A stretch of DNA of 64,000 nt, from contig NZ_FNUR01000004.1 in NCBI RefSeq assembly GCF_900108105.1, positions 1 to 64,000 of the forward strand, in the 5' to 3' direction. Positions 8,026-25,260 of the stretch are shown one piece after another; position 1 is the stretch's first letter, and every line of letters begins with the position of its first letter. The notes beneath the pieces are model-generated. The model saw nothing but the letters and a program-made list of their open reading frames with translations. It ran no database searches and was not told where the DNA came from. The DNA is from Butyrivibrio sp. Su6. GTDB taxonomy: Bacteria > Bacillota > Clostridia > Lachnospirales > Lachnospiraceae. Position numbers and translations under genes: made by a program.

Positions 8026-8129
8026 ACATTTAAAAGTCAGTAGCTATCTTCTACTGAAAACTCTCCTTCTGTCATCTTCCTTTATAAGCATACCGATTTC
8101 AGTACAATCATATATTTATCACAAAACAA

Positions 8130-8178
8130 AAAACAGCCTCAAATTTACACTCATTTGAAGCTGTTTTACACTGATATT
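8130..8178 (-). terminator. conserved hairpin element E1 (terminator-like)
   Basis: Copy 1 of a dispersed family. Arms AAAACAGC..CAAAT / ATTTG..GCTGTTTT surround a loop with TTACACTC, and the copy ends with ACACTGATATTT. On the minus strand the stem is followed by a run of U. It lies 14 bp after the stop of the MFS gene. Confidence 0.75.
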
Positions 8179-8191
8179 TAAATCAAAAGTA

Positions 8192-9469
8192 TCATTCAGA
8201 ATATTTATATCTCTTCATAATCTGGCCAGATATTATACAGATGGTCGTTCCTGTCACGCCAAGAATAAACATCATCATCGCTGCGCCTGCCCCCTTTCCA
8301 CTTCCGAAAAGAAAAGTCCAGAAGGGATCATCACTTTTAAGTACCATAAAGGGCTCGCAGATCTTGTCTACAAAGAGTCCTCCAAGGAAAAGACCAATGG
8401 GAATGGTAAAGAACTGCAGAGTATTCCTGCAAGCATATACTCTTCCCTGAAGCTCTATTGGAATGACATTGCGCATTATAACATTCTGGTTGGCTGCCAT
8501 AAGTGGTACGAACACCCATCCTATTATCTGGGCAACACACCATAATACCGGGTTTCTGGCAAAGGCCAGTAAAAAATTCTCTATCCCTAGCGCAAAAAGC
8601 ATCGTGAGATATATAACCTTTACTCTATCCTTGGGTTTTGGCAGGATCATTGGAAGAAAGCTTCCTGCTACCATAGCCAGCCCCGAGCATGCTGTTACAA
8701 TTCCATACACATTGTTACCTTTTTGAGGTATAACAAGGGCCGGAAGCACAGCATCAAAAGCTGAAGCTGTCAGGTTAACCCCCGCCATGAACAGTATTAC
8801 GGTAAGTATCAGTGGAGTATCTTTTAGGAACCTTAGCCCTTCCTTTGCAAGTTTGATAACATTTTCATCCTTGCCTGCTCCATCTTGAATCTCAGGCAAT
8901 TTTATATAGAACAATAATGCCACAAATGCAATGGCAAAAGTCAGAAGATCTATAGCAATAACCGTTTCAAGGCCAGCTAATCCATAAACCGCTGCAGCTA
9001 TGAGCGGGTTACCAATTGAAATGAGCGAACGTGACAATTGCTGAAAGCCACTGGTCTTCTGATAATGCTCTTTTGGAACAATAAGCGAATATGTCACTTC
9101 TGACGCAGGCTGCTGAACAGTGTTCATGAGACCTGAAAAGGCATTGATGGCGTATAAATGCCACATTGACAGAGTATCAGTTTTGTATAATACAAATACC
9201 GCAACAGTCGTAAGCGCCGCTAAAAAGTCACATATGAGCATGGTTTTCTTTTTATCAAATTTGTCTGTTATTGCTCCGGCAAAAATGCTCATAATTACAT
9301 ATGGTGCATATGTGCAGATTCTTAGCGCTGCTGTACTCAGCGCAGATCCTGTCTTTTCATACATCCACAGCGTCAGCGCGAATCCCGTTATTGCACTACC
9401 TAGCTGTGACAAACTCTGTGTGAGCCAGATTATGTAAAAATCTCTTAATTCCTTTATTCTGTTTTTCAT
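8192..9469 (-). CDS. MFS transporter (macrolide-efflux-like, MFS_3)
   Basis: 425 aa, about twelve membrane segments. FYIIWLTQSLSQLGSAITGF at the start, the loop DKFDKKKTMLICD after helix 2 and NTVQQPASEVTYSLIVP fit the MFS_3 group that includes Mef-type exporters and enterobactin exporters. It probably exports a small toxic compound. RBS GGAGGATAAATAACA precedes ATG 9469. A 15-bp palindromic operator at 9593-9607, shared with two other units including a marR operon, suggests MarR-type control. Confidence 0.85.
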   Translation of the reverse strand: MKNRIKELRDFYIIWLTQSLSQLGSAITGFALTLWMYEKTGSALSTAALRICTYAPYVIMSIFAGAITDKFDKKKTMLICDFLAALTTVAVFVLYKTDTLSMWHLYAINAFSGLMNTVQQPASEVTYSLIVPKEHYQKTSGFQQLSRSLISIGNPLIAAAVYGLAGLETVIAIDLLTFAIAFVALLFYIKLPEIQDGAGKDENVIKLAKEGLRFLKDTPLILTVILFMAGVNLTASAFDAVLPALVIPQKGNNVYGIVTACSGLAMVAGSFLPMILPKPKDRVKVIYLTMLFALGIENFLLAFARNPVLWCVAQIIGWVFVPLMAANQNVIMRNVIPIELQGRVYACRNTLQFFTIPIGLFLGGLFVDKICEPFMVLKSDDPFWTFLFGSGKGAGAAMMMFILGVTGTTICIISGQIMKRYKYSE

Positions 9470-9592
9470 TGTTATTTATCCTCCATACAAATAATTTTAT
9501 CTGCATGGAGCATATGCAATGCAATTGATCATGCCCTTCCTCTCTTCTTTGCTTCTATCATTCAAAAACATTTTTCCTTATTTTTATATGTT

Positions 9593-9607
9593 TTATAGTA
9601 ACTATAC
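9593..9607 (-). promoter_or_regulatory. MarR-type operator, site A
   Basis: TTATAGTAACTATAC, a 14/15 match to the perfect palindrome GTATAGTTACTATAC (either strand) seen at 20745-20759. It lies about 125 bp upstream of the MFS start, next to TTGCAA on the minus strand, which may belong to the promoter. Confidence 0.65.
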
Positions 9608-9620
9608 GCTTTGCAATATA

Positions 9621-9664
9621 AAAAAGACACCTTGCACTTATCTGGTGTCTTTTTACACAGATTC
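9621..9664 (-). terminator. conserved hairpin element E2 (terminator-like)
   Basis: Arms AAAAAGACACC / GGTGTCTTTTT, loop containing TGCACTTATCT, tail ACACAGATTC. U-runs exist on both strands. It lies 35 bp after the xpt stop and directly beside operator site A. Element plus operator resemble the block at 22641-22715 over about 60 bp. Confidence 0.75.
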
Positions 9665-9698
9665 TTACTATATTATTGTATATTATTATATGAAAATA

Positions 9699-10277
9699 TC
9701 AATCTCTGAAGATGATCTTACCTGTTACATGATCCATTCCATCGACAATTGCAAGAGATTCAAGTTTATAGCCTAAGTTTCTGATTATCTGTCCACCAGG
9801 CTGGAAGCCCTTCTCTATAGCAATACCGATGCCTGCCACAGTAGCGTTGGCATTATTTATTATGGATATCAGACCTTGCAAAGCACAGCCGTTTGCCAGG
9901 AAATCATCAATGATAAGAACCTTGTCATTCTCATCAAGGAACTTTTTGGATACGATCACTTGGTTCTTATTTTTGTGGGTAAAAGACTCCACTTCAGCAG
10001 TGTACATTTCCCCATCCAGATTGACACTCTGCGTTTTTTTTGCAAATACCACAGGAACATTAAAATGTCTTGCTGCCACGCAGGCAATACCTATACCTGA
10101 TGCTTCAATGGTCAGGATCTTATTTATCTCGACTCCTTCGAATCTTTTAGCCCATTCTGCACCCATCTTGTCGAAAAGCTCAACGTCCAATTGATGATTT
10201 AAGAAACTGTCCACTTTTAGTATGTTGCCCTCTTTAACAACACCGTCTTTCATAATTCTCTCTTCAAGAAAATTCAT
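9699..10277 (-). CDS. xpt: xanthine phosphoribosyltransferase
   Basis: 192 aa, the usual length for Xpt. The protein follows the family throughout: [33 protein letters not shown] and the PRPP-binding loop [11 protein letters not shown] at 120-130. It converts xanthine and PRPP to XMP in the cytoplasm. It is the last gene of the nucleoside uptake operon that starts at the purine riboswitch (15455-15530), so it is probably repressed by guanine. RBS AAGAAGGTAGAGAG. Element E2 lies just downstream. Confidence 0.95.
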
Positions 10278-10317
10278 CTCTCTACCTTCTTTGTTTTTAA
10301 TTCATATCAAATGTTAT

Positions 10318-11310
10318 TTATCTTTCTTCGCGGAAGTAATTGGTTCCAAGGCTCTTTGGAGGCTGATCTTCTTTTTTGTTTCTCATACTGGTAAAAACAA
10401 GCACCACAAGAGTTACGATATAAGGAATCATCTTATACAGCTCCTTGTATTCTGTGTGTGTTCCCGAGGGAAGATACAAGTATAAAATGTAGAGCCCTCC
10501 GAAAAGTATTGATGAAAAAATACCTACATCAGGTTTCCATATCGTAAAGATAACAAGTGCAATAGCAAGCCAGCCTCTGTCGCCGAAAGCATCATTGGAC
10601 CAAACACCACATGCATAATCCATTACATAGTATAAGCCGCCAAGTCCTGCTATCATACATCCAAGACATGTTGAAATGTATTTGTATTTTTTTACATTTA
10701 TTCCTGCAGCATCTGCAGCTGCAGGATCTTCTCCAACAGCGCGAAGGTGAAGTCCGACTCTTGTCTTCTTAAGCACATACGAACAGATCAAAGCAATAAT
10801 AATTGCAACATATGCCAAAAATCCGTATGAGAGGAACACTTTGCCAAACCATCCCGTTTTTGATGCAAAAGGCAGGGTCCTGCTAAAATAGGCAGAAGTA
10901 GCTGACAGTGAAATTGATGGAACATCAGCACCTGCAAGCTTTATCAAAGAGCCACCGAAGAAATTACCAAAACCTATACCGAACGTAGTCATGGCAAGAC
11001 CTGTAACATTCTGATTTGCCCTTAAGCTGACAGTCAGAAAGCAATATAACAATCCCATCAAAAGAGAACCTGTCAGTGCACAGATAAGAGGAATAAAAAT
11101 TGCAAGGAAACCATTTAACTCTCCTGACGCAACAGACTGTTCATAGAAAAAAGATCCTATTACACCGCTTATTGCACCGACGTACATGACACCGGGTATT
11201 CCCAAATTCAGATTTCCTGATTTTTCTGTGATCGTCTCACCTGTACTTCCAAGCAACAGAGGAACGCCCTGCTGTACAGCTCTTGGTATAAATGCAACCA
11301 GACTAAACAT
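10318..11310 (-). CDS. nucleoside ABC transporter permease (NupQ/YufQ-like)
   Basis: 330 aa with eight or more membrane segments. LGSTGETITEKSGNLNLGIPGVM near the start and AVGEDPAAADAAGINVKKYKY in the middle are hallmarks of BMP-dependent nucleoside permeases. The start overlaps the stop of the preceding permease gene (ATAATG), which indicates translational coupling. It forms the membrane channel with the 11310-12410 product. Confidence 0.93.
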   Translation of the reverse strand: MFSLVAFIPRAVQQGVPLLLGSTGETITEKSGNLNLGIPGVMYVGAISGVIGSFFYEQSVASGELNGFLAIFIPLICALTGSLLMGLLYCFLTVSLRANQNVTGLAMTTFGIGFGNFFGGSLIKLAGADVPSISLSATSAYFSRTLPFASKTGWFGKVFLSYGFLAYVAIIIALICSYVLKKTRVGLHLRAVGEDPAAADAAGINVKKYKYISTCLGCMIAGLGGLYYVMDYACGVWSNDAFGDRGWLAIALVIFTIWKPDVGIFSSILFGGLYILYLYLPSGTHTEYKELYKMIPYIVTLVVLVFTSMRNKKEDQPPKSLGTNYFREER

Positions 11311-12410
11311 TATGCGTTCTCCTTTCCCAAATCTTTACGTACAACGATTTTATATCTGATAAAAAACTCACATCCAATTATGAAGAACAGAATTATTCCG
11401 GTCAGAATATCTGCAAAACTCTGATTAAGTTCAAATGCAGTGGATATTTCACTGGCACCTCTGTCCATGAAAATAATAAGAAGGCTGGTAAAGATCATAG
11501 CAACCGGGTTAAACTTTGCAAGCCATGAAACCATAACACCTGTAAAGCCCTGTCCATCAGAAATTGTTGTTGTTATTGTGTGATTGATGCCTCCCACTAA
11601 AAGAAGACCCGCCAATCCGCAAATTGCGCCGGACAACAACATGGTTCTTATTATGACCTTCTCAACACTGATTCCTACATATCTGGCAGTGTTCTGACTT
11701 TCACCAACTACTTCTATCTCATATCCGTGCTTGGTATATTTCAAATAAATAAACATTCCAATAGTGACAACAGTAGCAGCAATAATACTTAAAAGATATT
11801 TATTACCAATGCTCGGAAGCCAGCCTATATTTGTATTTTGGTTGATAATACCAATTTTGCCTGATCCCTTAGGAACCTCCCAGACTATAGTAAAATACGC
11901 CACAAGCTGCGTAGCAATATAGTTCATCATCAGTGTTGAAAGCGTTTCATTAGTGTTCCACAAGGCTTTAAACAATGCCGGAATTACTCCCCAGACAGCC
12001 CCCGCCAATAAAGAAGTAACTATCATAAGAATAATTATGACACCATTCGGAAGCTTGTCTGATAGTGTTATCATACATGCTGCCGCTGCAAGACCACCTA
12101 TCAATACCTGTCCTTCACCACCGACATTCCAAAACTGCATTTTAAATGCAGGTGTTAATGCCAGAGAAATAATAAGAAGAATGGCAACATACTGCAGCGT
12201 TATCCAGGTTTTTCTCTGAGTGCCAAATGCACCTTTAAAAATTGTTGCAAATATTGATATTGGATTGTCACCTGTGCAGACCATAGTAATTAGTGCACAT
12301 AATGCCAAAGCAGCCAAAATTGCGATTATTCTGATAGTCCATGCTTCCCTGTTGCGGATGTCTGCCCTTTTTACTATATGAAAACGAGGCTCTTTTATCT
12401 TCTGTTCCAT
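11310..12410 (-). CDS. nucleoside ABC transporter permease (NupP/YufP-like)
   Basis: 366 aa, multiple membrane segments. It shows family features such as ITMVCTGDNPISIFATIFKGAFG, FWNVGGEGQVLIGGLAAAA and VVGESQNTARYVGISVEKVI. It pairs with the next permease in an importer for purine nucleosides. Start and stop codons overlap those of the ATPase gene upstream and the permease gene downstream, so the three form one translationally coupled set. Confidence 0.93.
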   Translation of the reverse strand: MEQKIKEPRFHIVKRADIRNREAWTIRIIAILAALALCALITMVCTGDNPISIFATIFKGAFGTQRKTWITLQYVAILLIISLALTPAFKMQFWNVGGEGQVLIGGLAAAACMITLSDKLPNGVIIILMIVTSLLAGAVWGVIPALFKALWNTNETLSTLMMNYIATQLVAYFTIVWEVPKGSGKIGIINQNTNIGWLPSIGNKYLLSIIAATVVTIGMFIYLKYTKHGYEIEVVGESQNTARYVGISVEKVIIRTMLLSGAICGLAGLLLVGGINHTITTTISDGQGFTGVMVSWLAKFNPVAMIFTSLLIIFMDRGASEISTAFELNQSFADILTGIILFFIIGCEFFIRYKIVVRKDLGKENA

Positions 12411-13945
12411 TATGAAGCCTCTCCTTTCTGTGTCATCATTGATCCCAAGGTGAATTTATCGGTATTCCTGCCATCTACAATTCCCGTAACTTTGCCACCG
12501 CAAAGAACAAGAATTCTGTCGCAGAGCTCAACAAGAACATCCAGATCTTCACCTACAAAAAGCACAGCAGCTCCTCGTTCTTTCTGCTTGTTGATAAGAT
12601 CGTATATCTGGTAGGAAGAACTGATATCAAGACCTCTTACCGCATATGCAGTCAGCAAAACCTTAGGTCTTGAGGATATCTCTCTTCCAACAAGAATCTT
12701 TTGTACATTTCCGCCGGAAAGCAGGCGTACAGGAGTGTCGATACTTGGAGTTGCCACCTGCAATTTATTTACAACTCTCTCCGCAAGCTTTCTAGGCTCT
12801 TTTTTCTCTGTGAAAAATCTCGACTTGCCACTTCTATAGGATCTGAGCATCATATTGTCAGCAAGATTCATATTGCCTACAAGTCCCATTCCAAGTCTGT
12901 CTTCAGGGACAAATGACAGCTTTACGCCAAGATCAGAGATTTCTCTCGGAGATTTACCAAGAAGGTCCTCCGTTCTTCCATCCTGGTGAACATATGTGAT
13001 CTTTCCATCTTTAATATTTTCGAGACCCGCAATTGCCCTAAGCAGTTCCTTCTGTCCACAGCCGGATATTCCGGCAATTCCCAGTATTTCTCCCGTATTG
13101 GCGGTAAAAGACACATCATCAAGCTTAACAATTCCCTCTTCATCAACAACAGTGAGATTTTCCACCACGATGCGCGGCTTGGGATCCACAGGCTCGGGTC
13201 TGTCGATATTAAGAGAGACTGAATGTCCCACCATCATATCTGTCATTTCCTGAGCATTGGTCTTGCTTGTCTTCATATCATCGATGAATTCTCCATGGCG
13301 CAGAACCGCAACTCTATCGGATATGCTCTGCACCTCGTTTAACTTGTGAGTAATAATAACTATGGATTTTCCATCTTTTTTCATATTGCGCATGACATTA
13401 AAAAGCTTCTCGGTTTCCTGAGGAGTCAGTACGGCTGTTGGTTCATCAAGTATTAAAATATCAGCGCCCCTATAAAGCACCTTAACAATCTCAACTGTTT
13501 GCTTTTCAGAGACGGACATATCATAAATTTTCTTATTTGTATTGATCTCAAATCCGTATTTGTCGCAGATTTCCCTGATTCTTTTTTCAGCCTCTTTTAT
13601 ATTAAGCCTTCCTTCAAGACCAAGAATTATATTCTCTGTCGCATTAAACACATCAATAAGCTTAAAATGCTGATGAACCATGCCTATTCCCAGATCAAAC
13701 GCATCCTTAGGAGAACGGATAACAGCCTCCTTGCCGTTTATGATTATCTGACCGGCATCAGGGTAATAGATTCCTGCAAGCATATTCATAAGAGTTGTTT
13801 TTCCACTTCCATTCTCACCAAGAAGAGATAATATTTCACCCTTATAAACATCGAGATTGACATTGCTATTTGCCGTTACATCACCAAAAGTCTTTGTAAT
13901 GCCACGAAGCGATATGGCTACTTCTTTGTTTTCCACGATTATCAC
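12410..13945 (-). CDS. nucleoside ABC transporter ATP-binding protein (NupO/YufO-like)
   Basis: 511 aa with two ATPase domains. Domain 1 has Walker A GENGSGKT (43-50), a signature-like MSVSEKQTVEIVK and Walker B ILILDEPTAVLTPQE. Domain 2 has a relaxed P-loop (GISGCGQKE), LSGGNVQK and VLLTAYAVRGLD, as is usual for ribose/nucleoside ATPases where the second site is degenerate. It energises the NupPQ-like permeases. A long hairpin (13975-14023) separates it from the binding-protein gene, which probably lowers its expression relative to that gene. Confidence 0.94.
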   Translation of the reverse strand: MIIVENKEVAISLRGITKTFGDVTANSNVNLDVYKGEILSLLGENGSGKTTLMNMLAGIYYPDAGQIIINGKEAVIRSPKDAFDLGIGMVHQHFKLIDVFNATENIILGLEGRLNIKEAEKRIREICDKYGFEINTNKKIYDMSVSEKQTVEIVKVLYRGADILILDEPTAVLTPQETEKLFNVMRNMKKDGKSIVIITHKLNEVQSISDRVAVLRHGEFIDDMKTSKTNAQEMTDMMVGHSVSLNIDRPEPVDPKPRIVVENLTVVDEEGIVKLDDVSFTANTGEILGIAGISGCGQKELLRAIAGLENIKDGKITYVHQDGRTEDLLGKSPREISDLGVKLSFVPEDRLGMGLVGNMNLADNMMLRSYRSGKSRFFTEKKEPRKLAERVVNKLQVATPSIDTPVRLLSGGNVQKILVGREISSRPKVLLTAYAVRGLDISSSYQIYDLINKQKERGAAVLFVGEDLDVLVELCDRILVLCGGKVTGIVDGRNTDKFTLGSMMTQKGEAS

Positions 13946-13974
13946 CTTTCAAAAATACAAAATAGATTAAAAAT

Positions 13975-14023
13975 AGGAAATCTTTGTTACAGCACAACTA
14001 ATTTGTGCTCACAAAGATTTCCT
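13975..14023 (-). terminator. long hairpin between binding protein and ATPase genes
   Basis: Two nested inverted repeats: outer AGGAAATCTTTGT / ACAAAGATTTCCT (13 bp) and inner AGCACAA / TTGTGCT, followed on the minus strand by ATTTTTAATC. It lies between the BMP lipoprotein stop and the ATPase start, a usual place for a partial terminator or mRNA-stabilising hairpin that makes the binding protein more abundant. Confidence 0.7.
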
Positions 14024-14043
14024 AAGATCACATTATGTTATGA

Positions 14044-15294
14044 TCAATATGCTGTATCAAGAAGTGAAATTCCATCAATCTGTAAGTCAAAGTAAGGAGC
14101 TGCACGGAATTCAGAACCTGATTCTGCAAAATAACCATCTGTGATAACTTCAGTATCAGCAGTATACTCAGCATCTGTATCTACATCAGCCATGTAGGAT
14201 GTAAGTGTCTCACCGTTAACAGTAAATGTTGTTGTATCAAATACATGAAGTGTTCCTGCATTCATAGCTTTTTCAGCCTCTGCTATAGCCTCAGCTGTTC
14301 CCTCTGCTGCAGCAGTTCCAAGGTCTGTAAGTACAACAGAACCTGTCTCAAGTGTTCCAACCCAGTCAGTAGCAATCTCTGTTCCATTTGCTACAGCGTC
14401 GATGATATATGCGAAATATGGTGTCCAATCAATTCTTGAAGAAACAATAAATGTGTTAGGGCAAGCGGATGCTGTGCTTCCGTTGTAGGACACGTCAGGT
14501 ACCCCAGCCTTTTCACATGCTGTAGGAGCACCCATTGAATCAGCATGCTGGGAAAGAAGAACACAGCCATCTTCGATAAGCTTGTTAGCGCCTTCTTTTT
14601 CAGCTGTCTCATCATACCAGGAACCTGTAAAAGTTACTTCCATTGTAGTTGAAGGGCATACAGAGCGGGCACCAAGGAAGAATGATGTGTAACCTGAGAT
14701 AACTTCTGCATATGTATATGCACCAACATAACCAATCTTAGCCTGGTCTTCAGTAATTTCTCCATTTGCGATCATCTCATTGAGCTTCATTCCTGCAGCA
14801 ATACCTGCAAGATAACGTCCCTCATAAATTGTAGCAAAAGCGTTGTGGTAATTGGAAAGGCCCTCTGTATGTGCCTTTGTACCTGTTGCATGACAGAACT
14901 GAACTTCAGGGTATTCTTTAGCTGCCTCAATCATGTAGTCTTCATGACCAAATGAATCTGCGAATACGATATCACAACCTGCATCTGCAAGTTCGCAAGC
15001 CGCCTCATAGCATTCCTGTCCTTCAGGAATATTTGTCTTGAGCATGTACTCAACACCGGCTGCTTCGCAAGCCTGTGTGGCACCATTGATGAAGTTCAGA
15101 TCGTATGTTGAATTCTCATCGTGTAAAAATATAAATCCAACCTTTACATCTGATGAAGCTGTCTGTGCAGCCTCTGTGCCAGTAACCTCTGATGTTGATG
15201 CTGTTTCTGCTTCAGTTGCGCTTCCGCAGGCAGATAATGCCATTACCATTGTTGCAGCAAGAACTGCTGACAACACTTTTTTGAATTTTTTCAT
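14044..15294 (-). CDS. BMP-family nucleoside-binding lipoprotein (NupN-like)
   Basis: 416 aa from ATG 15294, which has RBS GGGAGGAAGAC; an in-frame start 36 nt upstream has none. The signal peptide MKKFKKVLSAVLAATMVMA leads to the lipobox ALSAC. The body has BMP features: VGFIFLHDENSTYDLNFINGA near the mature N-terminus, HATGTKAHTEGLSNYHNAFA and VGAYTYAEVISGYTSFFLGA. It should capture purine nucleosides at the cell surface for the ATPase/permease genes downstream. It is the first gene after the purine riboswitch. Confidence 0.94.
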   Translation of the reverse strand: MKKFKKVLSAVLAATMVMALSACGSATEAETASTSEVTGTEAAQTASSDVKVGFIFLHDENSTYDLNFINGATQACEAAGVEYMLKTNIPEGQECYEAACELADAGCDIVFADSFGHEDYMIEAAKEYPEVQFCHATGTKAHTEGLSNYHNAFATIYEGRYLAGIAAGMKLNEMIANGEITEDQAKIGYVGAYTYAEVISGYTSFFLGARSVCPSTTMEVTFTGSWYDETAEKEGANKLIEDGCVLLSQHADSMGAPTACEKAGVPDVSYNGSTASACPNTFIVSSRIDWTPYFAYIIDAVANGTEIATDWVGTLETGSVVLTDLGTAAAEGTAEAIAEAEKAMNAGTLHVFDTTTFTVNGETLTSYMADVDTDAEYTADTEVITDGYFAESGSEFRAAPYFDLQIDGISLLDTAY

Positions 15295-15370
15295 GTCTTC
15301 CTCCCATTTTTTTAACCGATCACAGGTCATTTATAGGGATGGATTTTCTATGCTTTTCTTTGAAGCAAAA

Positions 15371-15402
15371 TAAAAAGGCGTAGAATCCGAGTTTCTACGC
15401 CT
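15371..15402 (-). terminator. riboswitch-associated intrinsic terminator
   Basis: Stem AGGCGTAGAA / TTCTACGCCT with a 7-nt loop followed on the minus strand by TTTTTA. It lies between the purine aptamer and the BMP gene and is the natural expression platform for transcription control. Confidence 0.9.
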
Positions 15403-15454
15403 ATCTGATTTGATATCATTAACAATTAATAGTATAAAACTGTTGTATATACAT

Positions 15455-15530
15455 CAAACACTCGATAGTCCGGTAATTTACGGTAACCGGGTAGAAACAT
15501 CAAATCCATATCATTTGACCTATATCGATA
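15455..15530 (-). promoter_or_regulatory. purine riboswitch aptamer (guanine class)
   Basis: The minus strand shows the purine aptamer layout: J1/2 ATATAGG, P2 CAAAT / ATTTG closed by loop GATATGG, J2/3 GTTTCTACC, P3 closed by loop CCGTAAA, and J3/1 GGACTAT. The specificity base (C74 in xpt numbering) is C, which fits guanine/hypoxanthine rather than adenine. The downstream terminator and the operon content (purine nucleoside uptake plus xpt) support an OFF switch driven by guanine. Confidence 0.92.
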
Positions 15531-15542
15531 AAATACCCGCTT

Positions 15543-15571
15543 ATATTAGCAAAGTAACATCAAGATTACAA
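15543..15571 (-). promoter_or_regulatory. promoter of the purine operon
   Basis: Minus-strand TTGTAA (15571-15566), 17-bp spacer, -10 TAATAT (15548-15543) with an upstream TG (extended -10). Transcription would begin about 6 bp before the aptamer, so the aptamer would be at the very 5' end of the mRNA. Confidence 0.55.
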
Positions 15572-15591
15572 GCTTTTTTTATCTTTTCTTT

Positions 15592-16380
15592 TTATAATTT
15601 TTCTGATCGCTCTCGTTTTTTGTTTTTCCAATATATCAGCGCAATTATCACAATATAAACTGCCGACAGAATAACATAAAACCATATATCAACCTGCAAG
15701 AAACAATATAGGAAATTAAAGCAAAAGTGTATCACTATGCCATAGATAAGGTTGTCATCCTTTTCCATGAAATAGTTCATGATAAAGCAGAGCCCCGTCA
15801 TTACGATGACGTTGGACAGAACATAGGGTATCATCTGAATCCCCATATAATCTGAATCAACAAACCACAGTATGGTATGCCAGAATGCCCATATAACACC
15901 CTGTATCACTGACGCTCGGAAAAAACTGTATTTTGCATTAAGGTATGGGCGAAGATACCCTCTCCAGCCTGATTCTTCTCCTGTCGGTCCCGTTGTGATC
16001 GAGAATAAAAAAGATGCCCAAAATGGATATACTCCAAGACTCCAATATGTTCCAAAGGCTCTGCCCTGGATCAGGGACAGCACAAAAACAGTGATCACAG
16101 TTGCTGCTATGGTAATAACCGCAGATGCAAATAACGACAGCAATGACATTCTCACGCCAAAAGCCTTTTTATAGAACCCTGTAATGGTCACTCCGGGACA
16201 AAAATACCTAAATCCCTTAAGGAGCACTATGGTCGGTGACCAGGCACATACATTGGACAATATGCGCATTACTACGGGCGGACAGTGAAATACCATACTT
16301 GCTGTTCCACATATTCCGAGAACCATACACCAAAACACAAGATAGCTTAAAACTACGTACTTTTTAATTTTCTTTTCCAT
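15592..16380 (-). CDS. CPBP family intramembrane protease
   Basis: 262 aa with about eight membrane segments. The CPBP/CAAX-protease motifs are present: EExxxR as EESGWR (135-140), FWHT at 167-170 and a late IHFCFNF. Members cleave or bind membrane proteins; in Firmicutes many are linked to bacteriocin immunity, but no bacteriocin gene is visible here. RBS GAGAGGAAAA precedes the start. The stop lies close to the purine operon promoter. Confidence 0.88.
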   Translation of the reverse strand: MEKKIKKYVVLSYLVFWCMVLGICGTASMVFHCPPVVMRILSNVCAWSPTIVLLKGFRYFCPGVTITGFYKKAFGVRMSLLSLFASAVITIAATVITVFVLSLIQGRAFGTYWSLGVYPFWASFLFSITTGPTGEESGWRGYLRPYLNAKYSFFRASVIQGVIWAFWHTILWFVDSDYMGIQMIPYVLSNVIVMTGLCFIMNYFMEKDDNLIYGIVIHFCFNFLYCFLQVDIWFYVILSAVYIVIIALIYWKNKKRERSEKL

Positions 16381-16440
16381 TTTTCCTCTCTATCTACCAC
16401 ATATCAAATACGAAATCCAACAATAATTTACAGCAAAATA

Positions 16441-16488
16441 AAACAGACCACCCCAGTTTCACTGATTTAGGTCTGTTTTACACTTATT
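16441..16488 (-). terminator. conserved hairpin element E3 (terminator-like)
   Basis: Arms AAACAGACC / GGTCTGTTT, loop containing TTTCACTGATTTA, tail TACACTTATTC. It lies 12 bp after the stop of the histidine kinase at 16491. Confidence 0.75.
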
Positions 16489-16490
16489 CT

Positions 16491-17819
16491 TTAATTTATC
16501 AGCATCCTGACCTTAAAAGTCTTCTCTTCTGCTATATATCTAATCTCGCTATCTGTCTGATTTATAAAGTTAAGAACACTTCTAGTTCCTATTCCATGCT
16601 CTTCCTCAGTATTAAACGGATATCCTTCCTCATCCAGCTTTACTTTCTCAGCGCATGAGTTCATGATCTCAAACAGAAGCTGACTTTTATACCTTGCAGT
16701 GATGTCAATCCGTCTCTCACTCTCAGGAACTTTTTCGCAAGCATGGATAGCATTCTCTATAAGGTTACTGATCACTATGGCAAGCTGCATCTCATCCACA
16801 TTCAGATTTGCAGGGATATTAGCAGATATATTTACCTTTATATTCTCTTTTTCGGCCATAGACAGGTAATGCGTGATTGCCGCATTAAGTGTAGTATTCT
16901 CGCAATATCTTTTTACAGAGTGGGGTTCCTGTTTGAGCCTCTCATTAAGACAATCCAGGGCTTCCTGCGTCTTGCCATCCTGTAAAAGAGTTTGAAGAAG
17001 AGCCTCAAAATGTCTTCTGTCATGACGCATGGCTCTGTCCTGCTGCATGATGCTCTCAGAAATAGCAAGTCGTTCCCTCATGGCTTTGGTTGCAATCTCC
17101 ATAATAACCGCATCTGATTGAAGCTTTAACTCATTTTGCCTTGCTTCCATCTCCATTTTCATGAGTCTTGTGTTTTTTTCAAGAAATCCAAAGACAAGTA
17201 TGTTAATAGCTACAAGAACCACCATAAGTTCAGTATATTGGGAAAGGTTATATTCCTCTCCTCTAAGATATCTGTTGCCATCAAGAACCAAAATAATGAT
17301 AGTAGCGATTGGCAGCACAACATATGGAAGAATTTCCTTATCAAGCCTCTTGTCCTTATCCTTATTTCCGAAAAGACAGATGACTCTGACCACAATAATC
17401 TGCAAAGACAAGATAATTCCATAGCTCTGAGGAGTCATAAAGTCATAGTTTATCTTAACCATATCCATACTCTGAACGCCTTGAACATAAATCGTGATGA
17501 TTACTTCAATTGCGCTCTGGGCAGCAATATAGAAAATGAAATATATTATGCCTCGAATATGATTAACTTTATAGCAAATGAATAATGGAATGAGGAATGC
17601 CAGGAATGATGCTATCAGATTTATATAAATCACTCCCAGCGTATTGGCGTAAAAGAAAGACAGCACAGTTAATGCATATATCATAAATACGAGAATCCTA
17701 TGCTTCTTAAAGAATTCTCGCATCACGTAAAAACTCATATGCATGGCATAGTACACAAAAAGAGCTACTATATCCCCTAATAGCAGCAATGTATATGGAT
17801 TGGACAAAAGGTCAGCCAT
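16491..17819 (-). CDS. AgrC-like sensor histidine kinase
   Basis: 442 aa. Six or seven membrane segments occupy about 10-215, followed by a coiled segment and the H-box RAMRHDRRHFEALL (His265/His270), the N-box NLIENAIHACEKVP and the G-box EEHGIGTRSVLNF. Such GHKL kinases usually signal to LytTR response regulators. None is adjacent; the LytTR regulator at 44849-45598 is the only one in the window. The C-terminal 200 residues closely match the kinase at 4247 and the fragment at 23380. RBS AAGGGGGGATTAG. Confidence 0.9.
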   Translation of the reverse strand: MADLLSNPYTLLLLGDIVALFVYYAMHMSFYVMREFFKKHRILVFMIYALTVLSFFYANTLGVIYINLIASFLAFLIPLFICYKVNHIRGIIYFIFYIAAQSAIEVIITIYVQGVQSMDMVKINYDFMTPQSYGIILSLQIIVVRVICLFGNKDKDKRLDKEILPYVVLPIATIIILVLDGNRYLRGEEYNLSQYTELMVVLVAINILVFGFLEKNTRLMKMEMEARQNELKLQSDAVIMEIATKAMRERLAISESIMQQDRAMRHDRRHFEALLQTLLQDGKTQEALDCLNERLKQEPHSVKRYCENTTLNAAITHYLSMAEKENIKVNISANIPANLNVDEMQLAIVISNLIENAIHACEKVPESERRIDITARYKSQLLFEIMNSCAEKVKLDEEGYPFNTEEEHGIGTRSVLNFINQTDSEIRYIAEEKTFKVRMLIN

Positions 17820-17890
17820 AACTAATCCCCCCTTGATACTATGTATTTCTAAATTATTATAGCATCGTTAATTTTTCCGGTCTTTCAGTC

Positions 17891-18793
17891 TCAATTTTTA
17901 TCATAATCTTTTTCGCCATCCTTCTTAAACCAAAATGAATAATGATACTTCTTTCTAAAGCCGAGCCTCTCATAGAATTCCATATCGGAAATGACGTAAG
18001 CTCTTTTCGCTCCAAGCTTTTTTGCCCTGCCCAGCGCTTCAAAGATAACAGCCTTAGCAACGCCTTTTCCTCTATATGAGGGAATAGTACATACAGGCTC
18101 AACATAAACATAGTCAGTACCTGCCATATACCATAGCAGACAGCATGCCACCATTTCTCCATTTTCATTCACAGCAGCAACACCTAAGTCCTTATTAAAA
18201 TGCTTCCTGACTCTTGGAACGATTTCTTCTTCACGCTCGAATACAGCTTTATCATCACCATGATCAAATCCCTGCCAGAAAAGCCATTGAAGTTCATAAG
18301 CATTTTCCATCGGATCCGGGCAAAAGAATTTAAGCCCGTCCGGAAGTTTCGCTTCAAGCGCATCAAAAAGACTCCTTTCCATGATGGTCTCATCCTGATC
18401 AGAGAGTGTAAATCCAAGGCTCTTTGCCATCTTTATTTCATCTGTATTCTCGTCACAGATAGCCAGTCCAAACCCTGAGTCATCCTTTAGTTCTTTATAA
18501 GCATATTCAACAACCGAAGAAAATAAATCTTTATACTCCGGAAGCACTCCGCAAAAGCCCTCTCCAAAATACATATCGTAAATTGCAGCACCAACAATTT
18601 TGTCATCCACTGTCCAAAGGCCAATGGAGTTCTTTAAGCTCTTATCAAATTCAGGATGTTCAATCATCCATTCAAGTCTCGCCCAGTTCCAGTTAATGTG
18701 GCTATCATCGTTCTCATTTAAAGCAATGAGAAAACCACATAATGCATCATACTCGTCATCTGTGTAGTTCTTGAATTTTATATCAGTTCTCAT
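17891..18793 (-). CDS. GNAT acetyltransferase, two GNAT-like halves
   Basis: 300 aa. The C-terminal half has the acetyl-CoA binding motif PSYRGKGVAKAVI followed by FYERLGFRKKYHYSFWFKK; the N-terminal half looks like a degenerate GNAT domain. It probably acetylates a small molecule or peptide; the substrate is unknown. RBS AAAAGGAGACAGC precedes ATG 18793. It opens the GNAT-rich island and is followed upstream by two more GNAT genes on the same strand with short gaps. Confidence 0.85.
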   Translation of the reverse strand: MRTDIKFKNYTDDEYDALCGFLIALNENDDSHINWNWARLEWMIEHPEFDKSLKNSIGLWTVDDKIVGAAIYDMYFGEGFCGVLPEYKDLFSSVVEYAYKELKDDSGFGLAICDENTDEIKMAKSLGFTLSDQDETIMERSLFDALEAKLPDGLKFFCPDPMENAYELQWLFWQGFDHGDDKAVFEREEEIVPRVRKHFNKDLGVAAVNENGEMVACCLLWYMAGTDYVYVEPVCTIPSYRGKGVAKAVIFEALGRAKKLGAKRAYVISDMEFYERLGFRKKYHYSFWFKKDGEKDYDKN

Positions 18794-18816
18794 TTATGCT
18801 GTCTCCTTTTAAGCTC

Positions 18817-19304
18817 TTACTTAATAATACATTCCATCTGAAGATCATATGGCTCATCTTCCGCATAGGATGAAATTGGGTCAGAACTGAGACGGAAACC
18901 CATAGCGGAATAGAAATTTATCGTTTCCTCAGAAGAACAACAGGATGCATACAAAGCATGCGCTCCTCTCTTTAGTGCTTCCTGTCTGGCAGCTTCAAGC
19001 AGGAATCTGCCAATTCCACGACGGCGGTAATCCGTGGACACGTGAAAGCTATCTATGATGAGTCGCCCTTTATTTAGCTGGGGGATCAGCATAATCTCGC
19101 CAACCACACAGTTTTCCTCAAACGCACAGTATCTGTCTTTTCTATCATCCACATAGCATACCAGTCCCACTGGTCTGGATGCGCAAGGCACCCATCAAGC
19201 ATTTCACCATATGCCTTCCTAAGTTCATCATCCTTTTCTGCCAGGATGCTGCTCTCCATCTGCTCTCTGCTGGCAGGATAAACCCTTATTCTATCTGTTT
19301 CCAT
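18817..19304 (-). pseudogene. GNAT acetyltransferase with a one-base frameshift
   Basis: Two overlapping reading frames together make one GNAT protein of about 162 aa. The first frame starts at ATG 19304 (RBS CAGGAGAATTAAG) and reads METDRIRVYPASREQM to WYAMWMIEK. The second frame continues DRYCAFEENCVVGEIML and holds the acetyl-CoA motif TDYRRRGIGRFLL. Joining them needs one extra A near the AAAA run at 19138-19141. Either the gene is inactivated, the sequence has an error, or slippage restores the frame. Confidence 0.75.
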
Positions 19305-19320
19305 CTTAATTCTCCTGTCA

Positions 19321-19944
19321 TCAATCAAAAATCTGTCCGGGAAGCTTTAATTTCTCCTTCGGAGGGAATGTCTTGTCAAACTCCTCAACATCTGAGTCGT
19401 CAACATAGTAACCCTTCGGTGTCTGATATACCCCTGTGATGCCATCAAGATATCCCGGAATCAGCTCTCTGCACAGGAAAAATGACGCATCTGCGCCCTC
19501 TGGAAGATCATGGTATCTAATCCCAAACTTGCTTGCATAGTCAAATCCGCAATGGCTGTAGAATCCGATATTCCCCTCAAAAAGAACTGCTCCAAATCCC
19601 ATCTCTGCAGCTTTTTCCAGAGAATAATCAAGAATTGCCTTTCCATAGCCTTTTCTCTTAAGTTCAGGTGTAATTCCAATGGGGCCCATGGTAAGCACAT
19701 CAATAATCCTTCCATCATCAGCCTCAATGACAGTTTTCATGAACATGTTCTGTCCGATCAGTTTCCCATCCTGCTCCATAACAAAGTCAAGCTCGGGGAT
19801 AAATGCTGGATCATCTCTGAGCACATGAATTACATAGTGTTCACTGCATCCAGGACGATAAACGTTCCAAAATGACTCTCTTACTAAATTTTCAACTTCT
19901 CTATAATCTTTCTTTTCTTCTAATCTAATTGTGTAATTACTCAT
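19321..19944 (-). CDS. GNAT acetyltransferase (YhbS-like)
   Basis: 207 aa. IRLEEKKDYREVENLVRESF at the start, the acetyl-CoA motif PELKRKGYGKAILDYSL and GFYSHCGFDYASKFGIRYHD fit the YhbS-like group. RBS AGAGGAGAAAACA. Its stop lies 17 bp before the start of the frameshifted GNAT gene. A broken copy of the same gene family is at 32725-32850 and keeps the first residues, a central piece and the 3' end. Confidence 0.88.
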   Translation of the reverse strand: MSNYTIRLEEKKDYREVENLVRESFWNVYRPGCSEHYVIHVLRDDPAFIPELDFVMEQDGKLIGQNMFMKTVIEADDGRIIDVLTMGPIGITPELKRKGYGKAILDYSLEKAAEMGFGAVLFEGNIGFYSHCGFDYASKFGIRYHDLPEGADASFFLCRELIPGYLDGITGVYQTPKGYYVDDSDVEEFDKTFPPKEKLKLPGQIFD

Positions 19945-19966
19945 TGTTTTCTCCTCTATTTCATCG

Positions 19967-20713
19967 TTAAGAAATTAAAAGCTCACCAATTTCTATATGT
20001 GGGTTCCTATATCTGGCGGAACTCTTCTCTCTATTATGGTGGATAGCATTCTTAGGGCAGTTCTGAATACAAGCTCCGCAGCTTATACAGCTCTTTGAAA
20101 AGAGAGGACGACCATTTTCAATATGTATATTTCCCATTGGACAAAGTCTTGTACATGTGCCACATCCCGTACATGCATCGTTCACGGTAACTTCTTCTGT
20201 AATACCAATTCCTATAGGAAACTCATACTTTTTCTTGTGACTACTTGTAATAAGTTTGCTTAAAAGCGAATTCCTTTTAACGTACTTTTTCTTTTCAACT
20301 ATATCGCCCACTATCTGGTCAATTGCGTCCTGCTGCTTTTTGCTATCGCCTTCCTGTTTTTTCATGTCAGCAAAAGTAATGCAGTTCTCGCCCATTAAAA
20401 CTGAATTAATATAGTCGAACTTTCTTCCATTTGCCAGAGTAATCTTGTTTACCTCGTTGCAAACAGATCCAGCAAAACATCCGTAAGTTGCTATGGCGAA
20501 GAGATAGTTGCACTCTACCTTCAGTTTCTGCAAAAAATCCTCAATATATGGTGGTATGCAAAGCCCGTAAACCGGAAATACTATACCTACAACATCATCT
20601 TTTATCTCATAGGTTCCCTGTTTGATCAGCTTGGGAATAGATAAACACTCTCCTCCCAAGCACTTGGCCACATACAAGCAATTTCCAGTTGAGCTGAAAT
20701 ACAAGGTTTTCAT
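19967..20713 (-). CDS. flavodoxin/ferredoxin fusion (EFR1 family)
   Basis: 248 aa. A flavodoxin-like N-terminal domain (LYFSSTGNCLYVAKCLGGE) is followed by two 4Fe-4S clusters near residues 180-225: CTGCGTCTRLCPMG and CISCGACIQNCPKNA. Members of this group are thought to carry electrons in the cytoplasm; the partner is unknown. RBS TTTGGAGGATATTGA. A perfect 15-bp palindromic operator lies 32 bp upstream and is shared with the MFS gene and the MATE-marR operon, so it probably responds to the same signal. Confidence 0.9.
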   Translation of the reverse strand: MKTLYFSSTGNCLYVAKCLGGECLSIPKLIKQGTYEIKDDVVGIVFPVYGLCIPPYIEDFLQKLKVECNYLFAIATYGCFAGSVCNEVNKITLANGRKFDYINSVLMGENCITFADMKKQEGDSKKQQDAIDQIVGDIVEKKKYVKRNSLLSKLITSSHKKKYEFPIGIGITEEVTVNDACTGCGTCTRLCPMGNIHIENGRPLFSKSCISCGACIQNCPKNAIHHNREKSSARYRNPHIEIGELLIS

Positions 20714-20744
20714 TCAATATCCTCCAAATGTGTAAACATAAACT

Positions 20745-20759
20745 GTATAGTAACTATAC
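20745..20759 (-). promoter_or_regulatory. MarR-type operator, site B
   Basis: GTATAGTAACTATAC, a perfect inverted repeat (GTATAGT / ACTATAC around one central base), 32 bp before the EFR1 gene start and 46 bp after the marR stop. Confidence 0.7.
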
Positions 20760-20773
20760 CCTTTGGAGAAAAT

Positions 20774-20816
20774 AAAACATGGATTACACTAATTATTTTG
20801 CTTTTTACACGGATTT
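20774..20816 (-). repeat. degenerate hairpin element, overlaps the marR stop
   Basis: Contains the family motifs GGATTACACTAATT and TTTTTACACGGATTTA but the stem arms are poor. Its right part encodes the last marR codons (Lys-Ser-Val-stop) on the minus strand. Confidence 0.5.
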
Positions 20817-21260
20817 ATCCAGATCATCAAGCGCCTTGTCAAAGGCTTCAAGGAACTGCCTCATGCTATCCAAAGTACTTTCAGGTATTTGGTCAAGTAT
20901 AGCTTCATACATAGTTCCCATGTTTTCATGCATCTTGCGGTGATCATCCCTTGCCGCTTTACCTTTTTTAGTAAGATACAGGCAAATCGCAGCATCTGAA
21001 TCGGGAGACACTCTCTTCTCCATAAGATCCCTGTCCACGAGCTTGTTGACCATCTGTGATACAGCGCCCTTAGTAATTCCGCGCACCTTGGCAAGCTGTG
21101 TGATGTTGATTCCCTCACTATCACCAACTATAGCTATTGTATGGATCTCAGGCTGAGTAAGGATTATATCCTTGCAGTAAACCTGAGGCTTTTTTTCATA
21201 CTGAATGTATTTATGGATGATTCGCTCCATTAACCAGGCAAGTTCCTTGTAGTGTTTCAT
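20805..21260 (-). CDS. MarR family transcriptional regulator
   Basis: 151 aa winged-helix protein. ITQLAKVRGITKGAVSQMVNKLVDRDLMEKRVSPDSDAAICLYLTKKGKA is the classical MarR recognition helix and wing region. RBS TTAGGAGCGTAAG overlaps the MATE stop, so it is the second gene of a MATE-marR operon. The palindromes at 22641-22655, 20745-20759 and 9593-9607 are its likely targets, giving autoregulation and control of the MFS pump and the EFR1 protein. The last three codons and the stop come from a conserved 3' repeat. Confidence 0.93.
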   Translation of the reverse strand: MKHYKELAWLMERIIHKYIQYEKKPQVYCKDIILTQPEIHTIAIVGDSEGINITQLAKVRGITKGAVSQMVNKLVDRDLMEKRVSPDSDAAICLYLTKKGKAARDDHRKMHENMGTMYEAILDQIPESTLDSMRQFLEAFDKALDDLDKSV

Positions 21261-21263
21261 ATC

Positions 21264-22610
21264 TTACGCTCCTAATTTGTGACAAATACGATACTCTGCT
21301 AAATATGTCTTTTGTATATAGGATACCATTGCAAAAGCCACTATCACAGATAAAATATGGCTTATCAAAAATGCAAACCATACTCCGTTTAAGCCAAAGA
21401 GCTGTTTAAAAATATAGGCAGTTGGAATTCTGAACACAATGTAATAAAGAATCAAAAGAACCATCGCCATTCCCGGCTTACCAACTCCCGTAATATATCC
21501 CTGCATACAACTTGTGAGCATGTACAGAACATAGCCAATACTGATTATTGAAAAGAACCTTGATACTACCTGTGCGACTTCTGCCCCCTGTCCAAAAACT
21601 GCTGTGAGCTGACCTGAAAAAAGGATCACTAGCACGCTTGTAATTGCAATAAGAGAGCCTCCTATGATCATGCTTGATTTCAAATAATCCATTGCCCTGT
21701 CATGCCTTTTTGCTCCAACACATTGTCCCACTATGGATGTCACTGCCATACACATTCCTGTAGTAGGCATAAACATTATAAGTTCAAGATTTCTGGCGAC
21801 TCCAAAGCCTGCTATAGTGTTCATTCCAAATGAGGAGATGAAAGAAATCATAAAAGCAGAACTAAGTGGAGGCATGATTGACTGTACTGTAGTTGGCACA
21901 GATAAACGGACCATGGTTATGGCATCATTCATATTGATCTTTTTAAAATCCATAGAAAACATCTTTTTCTTTTTGTGATAAATAATGGCGTAAACCAGGC
22001 ATAGAACTTCAGAAGCCACTGTAACAATTGCTGCGCCGGCTAATCCATAAGCTTTTATTGCAAAAGGATCAGCAACTGCATTAAACACTGCTGTGAGCAT
22101 CATACCTTTCATCTGAAACATTGGATCCCCAAATGCCCTAAAGATTGATGTAAACACCATGTAAATAAATAACGCTGCATTTCCCAACAAGTAAATTTTT
22201 AAATATGTTGCAGCATCAGAGAAAATAATTTCCGGTGTTCCCATAAGAGCCAGTAGCGGATCAACAAGTACTTCGCCTAAGATGAGAAGTACAACTGAAA
22301 AAAAGGTGGACATTGCTATAACGGTCCCTACTGCCCCCGGAATATGTTTCCTGTCATCTGCTCCGACAAGATTAGCTATCATAACGGAAATACCGTTACC
22401 AACACCCATTGAAATGGAATTTAAAAACAAAACAATCGCTGTTCCAGCGGTGAGCGCCGACATACCCTGTTCTCCAAGCAGGTTTCCGACCCACAGACCA
22501 TCCACCATGTTATAGATCATTAGCATGATCATCCCAACCATAAGTGGAGCAAACATCTTGATAAGTGACTTATTTGTTTCACCATTGATAAAATCTATTT
22601 TGCTATTCAT
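21264..22610 (-). CDS. MATE family efflux transporter
   Basis: 448 aa with about twelve membrane segments; MIYNMVDGLWVGNLLGEQGMSAL and NGISVMIANLVGADDRKH are MATE features. RBS AAAGGAGGAAAAA. It is the first gene of a two-gene operon with marR, and an operator lies 30 bp upstream of its start. That arrangement points to induction of the pump by a ligand of the MarR protein. Confidence 0.92.
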   Translation of the reverse strand: MNSKIDFINGETNKSLIKMFAPLMVGMIMLMIYNMVDGLWVGNLLGEQGMSALTAGTAIVLFLNSISMGVGNGISVMIANLVGADDRKHIPGAVGTVIAMSTFFSVVLLILGEVLVDPLLALMGTPEIIFSDAATYLKIYLLGNAALFIYMVFTSIFRAFGDPMFQMKGMMLTAVFNAVADPFAIKAYGLAGAAIVTVASEVLCLVYAIIYHKKKKMFSMDFKKINMNDAITMVRLSVPTTVQSIMPPLSSAFMISFISSFGMNTIAGFGVARNLELIMFMPTTGMCMAVTSIVGQCVGAKRHDRAMDYLKSSMIIGGSLIAITSVLVILFSGQLTAVFGQGAEVAQVVSRFFSIISIGYVLYMLTSCMQGYITGVGKPGMAMVLLILYYIVFRIPTAYIFKQLFGLNGVWFAFLISHILSVIVAFAMVSYIQKTYLAEYRICHKLGA

Positions 22611-22640
22611 TTTTTCCTCCTTTTGTATAGCTGCTATACT

Positions 22641-22655
22641 GTTTAGTAACTATAC
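22641..22655 (-). promoter_or_regulatory. MarR-type operator, site C
   Basis: GTTTAGTAACTATAC, 14/15 match to site B. It lies 30 bp before the MATE start and adjoins TTGCAA on the minus strand, exactly as at site A. Confidence 0.65.
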
Positions 22656-22667
22656 ACTTTGCAAAAT

Positions 22668-22714
22668 AAAAAAGACTCCTTACACTTATATGGAGTCTTT
22701 TTACACGGATTTTG
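22668..22714 (-). terminator. conserved hairpin element E4 (terminator-like)
   Basis: Arms AAAAAGACTCC / GGAGTCTTTTT, loop TTACACTTATAT, tail ACACGGATTTTG. It sits about 70 bp after the yjdF-like stop and next to operator site C. The arms differ from E2 by compensating changes in the stem while the loop and tail are kept. Confidence 0.75.
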
Positions 22715-22784
22715 CTCTATTGATCCATTTACTTTGACGCAAACTTAGGATTTTTCACCTTCTTTGATTACGACAAAATTCCCG

Positions 22785-23201
22785 TCAATGCCCTTTATGC
22801 TTTTCTCTTTTCTTTTCCTGTTTTAGTTCAAACAAACGCTGATTCTCAGCTTCTTTTTGTTCGCGGCTTCTGCATTTCCGTTCCAGTTTATTCTGCTCCT
22901 GTTGTAATTTGAGAGCTTGTTGCGATTTTGTACCTATGCCAGTCTCTAGTGTCTGCTTTTTCGCATCACGCTGCGCTCTCTTGGGATTCTTCTTAGTTTC
23001 CTTTACGGTCGTTTCAATCTCCGGACTAAAATGCAGATGATAATAGTTCCGATTAATAAGTTCCAGCACCTCTATGTCCTTAGGTTCAGCACCAAAAGTC
23101 ACTTTAGCTGCTGATAATTTTTTATCGATAACCCTCTCGAATATGCCCACCCAGAATGGGTCTTCAAAATACACGATCAGCCTGCCACTTACTCTATCCA
23201 T
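22785..23201 (-). CDS. YjdF-like protein (DUF2992)
   Basis: 138 aa. SGRLIVYFEDPFWVGIFE at the start, AKVTFGAEPKDIEVLELI and the Lys/Glu-rich coiled C-terminus ending KREKHKGH match the YjdF family, about 140 aa. In B. subtilis yjdF is controlled by an RNA that senses azaaromatic compounds, but the roughly 80 bp upstream here show no such motif and the ribosome binding site is poor. Function unknown; a role in sensing or resisting aromatic toxins is possible. Confidence 0.8.
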   Translation of the reverse strand: MDRVSGRLIVYFEDPFWVGIFERVIDKKLSAAKVTFGAEPKDIEVLELINRNYYHLHFSPEIETTVKETKKNPKRAQRDAKKQTLETGIGTKSQQALKLQQEQNKLERKCRSREQKEAENQRLFELKQEKKREKHKGH

Positions 23202-23286
23202 TGTTAATCATCTCTCGTATCAGGGCCTTCAATTTAGCCTCTGTACACTTATATGTAGTAGTGACCATACTTTATCATAGCAAAAG

Positions 23287-23334
23287 AAAACAGACTCAAA
23301 TCACACTGATTTCGGTCTGTTTTTCACTGATTTA
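23287..23334 (-). terminator. conserved hairpin element E5 (terminator-like)
   Basis: Arms AAAACAGAC / GTCTGTTTT, loop TCAAATCACACTGATTTCG, tail TCACTGATTTA. It lies about 45 bp after the kinase fragment stop, the position expected for the 3' end of the original kinase gene. Confidence 0.75.
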
Positions 23335-23379
23335 ATAGGAGTTCAGTGTCCTACATGTTTTGAATAAAACACAAACTCC

Positions 23380-23664
23380 TTAACTGACCAACATTCTGAC
23401 TTTGAAGGTCTTTTCTTCAGCTATATATCTTATCTCGCTATCAGTCTGATTTATGAAATTCAGAACACTTCTGGTTCCTATTCCATGATTCTCCTCATTA
23501 CTAAATGGGTGTCCTTCTGCATCCAGGACGATTTTATCTGCACATGAGTTGCTGATTTCTATCAAGAGCCGACTCTTATATCTGGCATTGATGTCGATTC
23601 TTCTCTCATTCTCCGGAACTTTTTCGCAGGCATGAATAGCGTTTTCAATAAGGTTGCTGATCAC
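23380..23664 (-). pseudogene. C-terminal fragment of an AgrC-like histidine kinase
   Basis: 94 residues nearly identical in pattern to the ends of the kinases at 4247 and 16491, beginning exactly at the N-box (VISNLIENAIHACEKVP) and including the G-box ENHGIGTRSVLNFI. The membrane region and H-box are missing. The first codon is GTG, overlapping the stop of the acetyltransferase gene (GTGA), so it could still be translated by coupling. I interpret it as a remnant left when the 5' part of a third kinase gene was replaced by the GNAT gene. Confidence 0.8.
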
Positions 23665-24128: not shown

Positions 24129-24152
24129 TCTAATCCTCCCCACTATATTCAC

Positions 24153-24719: not shown

Positions 24720-24741
24720 AATTACTCCCATCCCACATTTA

Positions 24742-25239: not shown

Positions 25240-25260
25240 ATATCATCTCCAATAGACCAT

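Follow-up and report, generated by a model that had tools for sequence, protein, structure and literature searches.

The 64,000-nucleotide stretch of the Butyrivibrio sp. Su6 genome considered here (contig NZ_FNUR01000004.1 of assembly GCF_900108105.1, positions 1 to 64,000; hereafter the window) encodes a MarR-family regulator paired with a MATE efflux transporter, and a common palindromic word lies ahead of this MATE-marR pair, of an EFR1 family flavodoxin/ferredoxin gene, and of an MFS exporter gene (Table 1). Considered as a whole, these features probably represent a MarR regulon that acts through the common palindrome, resides on swappable modules of an accessory array, and obtained the site ahead of the MFS gene by copying of a block of upstream DNA. 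A regulon would then have been caught growing, in that an operator and an insulating terminator were copied before a second pump, with an intermediate form of the hairpin still present in two relatives.

A pattern scan of the window revealed a perfect palindrome at operator B and single changes at operators A and C, as a sequence-only reading of this DNA had claimed, and assignment of the downstream genes bore out the MFS, EFR1 and MATE-marR units that it had named. Operator D, which was absent from that reading, is in tandem with operator C at a distance of 16 bp centre to centre. All of the operators and their genes are on the minus strand. With up to three mismatches to the palindrome allowed, the window contained 10 strand-matches (1.17 expected), 8 of which are the four palindromes read on both strands; none of 100 shuffles reached 10. 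When the whole 3.7-Mb genome was scanned at up to one mismatch, as had been suggested earlier, the three window places were joined by a single match (C19:218657) within a 564-residue reading frame, and the three intergenic places bearing the palindrome (A, B and C) all fall within 13 kb. At up to two mismatches, there was no genome-wide surplus beyond the window sites because 13 strand-matches were obtained versus 26 for a reversed control pattern. A wider regulon at this threshold was rejected, the five non-window places (C19, C16, C3, C4 and C23) all being inside long open frames, as judged by simple open reading frame calling. A chance origin of the sites was likewise rejected on the basis of the window shuffles and the whole-genome scan. 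Binding is predicted from conservation, and the palindromes might instead be fortuitous or general inverted repeats with no regulatory role; the shuffling result, and the retention of the word ahead of MATE and EFR1 in different species and genera, make this extremely improbable.

Conservation of the sites was examined in 79 genomes of the genus, in which homologues of MarR (E ≤ 1e-10), EFR1 (E ≤ 1e-60), MATE (E ≤ 1e-90) and MFS (E ≤ 1e-120) were found in 8, 15, 7 and 25 genomes, respectively. A site was counted if it had at most one mismatch and was within 320 bp upstream of the gene. Of the 15 EFR1 genes, that of genome G013 is a fragment with an internal stop and was left out; among the 14 readable cases, 13 have the operator upstream. 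All seven MATE-bearing genomes have it upstream of MATE, 227 bp ahead of the gene in G014. Genome G024 possesses EFR1 and has neither MarR nor the operator. In G029, MATE, marR and EFR1 have diverged to 70, 75 and 67% identity, respectively, and both sites are kept. Operator D is retained in G008, G011 and G016, has one change in G019, and is degraded in G029. Outside the genus, the site is kept at MarR-MATE pairs despite a changed gene order: Oribacterium sp. C9 (MarR identity 65%) has a perfect site between marR and MATE, and a Treponema metagenome-assembled genome (MarR identity 55%) has a site ahead of each of marR and MATE, with one and two changes. Sites that are weaker or of the D form, having two to three changes, were observed in the metagenome-assembled genome RUG12474 and in KH1P17, the D-form being that of KH1P17. 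Conservation extends beyond the palindrome itself, with AAG preceding and AGT following it (23 distinct sites of 28), which gives the extended form AAGNGTATAGTWACTATACAGTWTA. On these comparisons, the link between MarR and the operator is well supported.

Some observations nevertheless weigh against this link. A promoter scan detected no clear sigma-70 promoter at the operator sites. The EFR1 operator is kept without a close MarR in five genomes (G009, G015, G017, G026 and G075, the last from an assembly that is 79% complete), and MarR paralogues with 63-65% identity and the same helix (G014, G018 and G019) have no operator within 320 bp upstream, their best matches having 5-6 mismatches. We read both the EFR1 operators without MarR and the paralogues without a site as modules that assort separately. 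Alternatively, the main reader of the word may be another regulator that is more widespread, with the local MarR as one reader among several. The perfect or one-change EFR1 sites of those five genomes would fit such a reader, as would a weak 163-residue MarR relative (E about 6e-9) in G000 (the present genome), G008, G009, G014 and G026. At E ≤ 1e-6, however, G015, G017 and G075 yielded no such relative, and the site follows the MarR-MATE pair into other genera, so that a different principal reader appears improbable.

Relatives also hold rearranged or variant copies of these genes. Beyond four inserted frames, G016 holds a 3' copy of part of marR (L050:11990-16428). The MATE gene of G019 is split into two frames, and only the end of marR is left (L054:10263-11608). 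A more distant MarR (43% identity) with a similar recognition helix directly follows an xpt gene in G029 (L060:7347-8468). The DNA upstream of MATE in G014 contains tandem arrays of half-operator-like units (GTATAGCTGTTTTCT, period 16; others, 17 and 30) (L049:2762-2970).

In the proposed mechanism, a dimer of the 151-residue MarR would bind the palindrome GTATAGTTACTATAC with its conserved flanks. Sites C and D, in tandem, would mediate repression of the regulator's own MATE-marR operon, and site B that of EFR1; in a small clade the MFS pump would also be repressed, from site A. Some compound would lift this repression. Binding of the palindrome by a dimer is predicted from conservation, while assignment to the MarR family follows from a winged-helix domain scoring above the curated cut-off. 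The closest relatives of known structure by sequence are weak and include a fatty acid biosynthesis regulator (6jbx, E 1.2e-8), Rv1404 (2nyx) and multidrug operon repressors (1lnw and 3mex). The earlier suggestion that one MarR coordinates all three units in response to a toxic redox-active or aromatic compound holds in part: MATE-marR and EFR1 have the operator in common, but the MFS gene is not a settled member because the site is present in only 3 of 25 orthologues and a leader frame in all 25 (see below). The sole pointer to a redox-active or aromatic compound is the presence of EFR1.

Pairing of a MarR-family repressor with a MATE pump recalls MepR and MepA of Staphylococcus aureus. According to PMC3617543, MepR (mepRAB) is self-repressive and may bind mepA as two dimers, an arrangement that tandem sites C and D resemble. 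The motif GTTAG given there for MepR is absent from all four operator 15-mers of the window. The MATE protein scored 67.3 bits against the MepA equivalog NF000131, far below the cut-off of 850. Unlike the S. aureus system, the gene order is MATE-marR, and the regulon takes in EFR1 and, in one clade, an MFS pump. The regulator is of a known kind, and the unusual, novel part is the copied operator block together with the module array.

The sequence-only reading had also proposed that terminator and regulatory block were copied together, and comparison of the blocks ahead of each operator argues for this. Over 77 nt, the hairpin blocks A and C are 86% identical, and block B is 69% identical. In a comparison limited to blocks of at least 70 nt, block A of G009 scored 96-111 with six C-type blocks and at most 51 with the remaining elements, other A copies aside. 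Elsewhere, xpt and MFS orthologues occur without block A. In addition, G008 and G009 contain an intermediate hairpin, GACTCC..GGTGTC, with one broken pair; in the present genome the form is GACACC..GGTGTC, with pairing restored. Because of the C-type scores, the absence of the block from xpt and MFS loci elsewhere and the intermediate hairpin, the idea that block A (word, hairpin and operator) is a copy of block C is supported. The 5' end of the MATE-marR module would on this account have been copied between xpt and the MFS gene. An A-C homology reaching downstream past the operator was considered and was not significant, its scores being attained by 123 and 54 of 500 shuffles. At an unrelated place in G008 (C52:11069; L167:11069-11121) there is a leftover C-type block that breaks off within the first operator half.

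The MFS gene carries the operator only in the present genome, G008 and G009, and site A is unchanged in all three. By contrast, all 25 orthologues are preceded by a short frame whose peptide reads M..C...AP (TP in one) and has R or K as its last residue; it has 11 codons in 18 genomes and 13 codons in 7, and its stop stands 23-31 nt ahead of the MFS start codon. In all three sequences folded, the MFS ribosome-binding site is paired with the last part of the frame, the two further orthologues giving z values of -3.2 and -3.1, and two distinct stem sequences produce the same pairing. Such an arrangement is typical of translational attenuation and suggests a conserved control of the pump, to which the copied block would have added control by MarR. 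It is similar to the leader attenuation of erm and mef type, in that a Mef-like exporter has its ribosome-binding site paired with the last part of a short frame. The peptide here, M..C...AP..R/K, is different and is not known to respond to a drug; for mef(E), transcriptional attenuation is described (PMC4335068). The MFS pump is probably a recent recruit to the regulon, site A having been added in three genomes. Site A might instead be a passenger of the copied block that is idle for the MFS gene, with the leader peptide alone governing the pump. The contrast between 3 and 25 of 25 orthologues is in keeping with an idle site, as is its persistence in G009, where MATE-marR is absent. Its unchanged state in every carrier, and its position as the only promoter-proximal operator left in the copied block, leave this a serious possibility but the lesser one. 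Recruitment of the pump to the MarR regulon thus remains our preferred account of site A.

MATE-marR and EFR1 would be neighbouring modules of an array in which co-oriented genes for acetyltransferases, pumps, kinases and regulators are arranged alike in the window and in relatives. A module starts at the word AATMAGTGTAA, in most cases with a terminator hairpin next to it, and is proposed to carry its own operator-promoter; a gene moved with such a 5' end would therefore arrive insulated and regulated. The element runs from the word through one stem arm to a loop that repeats the word, followed by the other stem arm and a T-run; in the nine window copies that a pattern search found, the two words are exactly 21 nt apart. 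A covariance model was built from seven window copies, with A, B and C left out. At E ≤ 0.1, 9 of its 12 genome matches were in the window, all on the minus strand, seven of the nine being the model's own training copies. Sixteen control loci, which had been retrieved on account of chance operator-like matches elsewhere, gave no element match at E ≤ 0.1. Nor was there one at E ≤ 0.01 in the 40 kb that follow or, under stricter filters, at E ≤ 0.001 in any of 24 genomes of other genera. The element was found in 17 of 37 genus genomes searched, and two copies were found in Oribacterium sp. C9. Clustering in the window and the empty control searches argue against the hairpin being just a genome-wide terminator type.

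In module maps, MATE-marR is found in some genomes and missing from others while the neighbours on either side are of the same kind. The DNA that stands ahead of C in G016 and G019 leads instead to the B element in G026 and G075, the change coming at the word, and G009 provides a weaker third case. Flanks were compared for 101 of 104 elements (three with short flanks were dropped, and pairs with intermediate flank identity were left out). Where the downstream DNA was the same and the upstream DNA different, the hairpin was common to 23 of 24 pairs; where the upstream DNA was the same and the downstream DNA different, it was not common in 13 of 14. The exceptions are the pair L055 and L196, with a common right flank and no common hairpin, and the pair L054 and L040, with left flank and hairpin both common. 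The hairpin thus appears mostly to travel with the downstream gene. This comparison, which looks beyond the element, was preferred to a breakpoint profile because the latter was partly selected on hairpin identity and leans towards the word. Several points count against so simple a rule. The flank pairs are not independent, and 9 of the 13 different-hairpin pairs are intermediate (0.76-0.88 identity). The HK terminator of G000 keeps its upstream gene in G016 and G019, the switch falling after the hairpin (a case from the breakpoint profile, outside the flank-comparison classes). Block B, moreover, matched the model only at E 0.054, and its degenerate hairpin folded no better than shuffles (z -0.40).

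Gene order was broken in at least one relative at 55 of 55 gaps with an element and at 106 of 123 without (Fisher p 0.0018), or in 226 of 271 versus 324 of 444 at the level of pairs, which are not independent (p 0.0013). The enrichment at elements is real but modest, and the region is plastic throughout. This general plasticity accords with the view that the junctions need no dedicated system: similar terminators would recombine in the ordinary way, through homology or short repeats, and hairpins of mixed origin would be lost by selection. A scan of 47 distinct window proteins (a subset of the open reading frames) gave no recombinase, and the integron integrase TIGR02249 scored above cut-off in none of the 79 genomes; weaker tyrosine-recombinase matches occurred in all 79, as in 14 of 14 control genomes. 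Despite an identity of only about 16 bases at the C-B junction, and switches that fall at the word and rarely after the hairpin, ordinary recombination is a rather likely explanation. Much less probable is an unrecognized cassette-type exchange system in Butyrivibrio (and Oribacterium) that operates without integron integrase, in which word and hairpin would form the recombination site, modules would bring their own 5' insulator and operator, and regulons would grow by copying of 5' ends. Were module starts indeed recombination sites, rumen Clostridia would own a cassette system through which pumps, acetyltransferases and kinase genes spread with their regulation already in place.

The array resembles integron cassette arrays and CALIN elements: its accessory genes are co-oriented, a hairpin recurs where units meet, and a unit may be there or missing while its neighbours stay the same. 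According to PMC8618304, an integron cassette is an open reading frame plus its attC. An attC site stands at the 3' end of its unit and moves with the upstream gene; here the hairpin is an intrinsic terminator that mostly moves with the downstream gene. Identity with an integron was rejected, as no integron integrase exceeded the cut-off in the 79 genomes and most of the informative flank pairs show the hairpin following the downstream gene. Among the literature matches listed, no title concerned such module arrays, and the accessible portions of PMC8627218 and PMC6912079 contain neither "integron" nor "terminator."

Table 1. Positions of operators, blocks, genes and leader features in the window
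Feature	Position	Strand	Details
Operator A	9593..9607	-	GTATAGTTACTATAA; one change; 123 nt ahead of MFS start codon
Operator B	20745..20759	-	GTATAGTTACTATAC; perfect palindrome; 31 nt ahead of EFR1 start codon
Operator C	22641..22655	-	GTATAGTTACTAAAC; one change; upstream of MATE-marR
Operator D	22625..22639	-	GTATAGCAGCTATAC; between site C and MATE start codon
Block A	9615..9667	-	Word AATCTGTGTAA and terminator hairpin GACACC..GGTGTC; covariance model E 0.02
Block B	20769..20819	-	Word AATCCGTGTAA (its TAA is the marR stop codon) and degenerate hairpin; EFR1 module start
Block C	22663..22715	-	Word AATCCGTGTAA and terminator hairpin GACTCC..GGAGTC; MATE-marR module start; covariance model E 1.6e-4
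MarR-family regulator, 151 aa	20805..21260	-	PF01047, 38.5 bits (cut-off 24.6); PF12802, 38.6 bits (cut-off 27)
MATE efflux transporter, 448 aa	21264..22610	-	TIGR00797, 188.7 bits (cut-off 147.4)
EFR1 family flavodoxin/ferredoxin protein, 248 aa	19967..20713	-	NF038196, 188.5 bits (cut-off 75)
MFS exporter, 425 aa, Mef-like	8192..9469	-	Below every NCBIfam cut-off
Leader peptide frame of MFS gene	9497..9532	-	MINCIAYAPCR; frame of like form in 25/25 orthologues
Hairpin pairing leader-frame end with MFS ribosome-binding site	9481..9510	-	Minimum free energy -23 kcal/mol; z -4.05
Accessory array	8124..49893	-	Ten word-hairpin elements, at 8124, 9615, 16434, 20769, 22663, 23281, 30445, 42943, 46057 and 49841

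Against the Mef macrolide exporter models, the MFS protein scored best with Mef(A), at 119.9 bits for a cut-off of 675. A literature search for the phrase "EFR1 family ferrodoxin" found it in no paper of the library searched. In the window, an exact 31-nt direct repeat occurs at 26333-26363 and 40871-40901, 14.5 kb apart, together with a 242-nt repeat at 28247 and 44533 (93% identity) and a 52-nt repeat at 27640 and 41130 (92%). A purine riboswitch at 15446-15547 lies upstream of a nucleoside-type binding protein gene and ABC genes leading to xpt.

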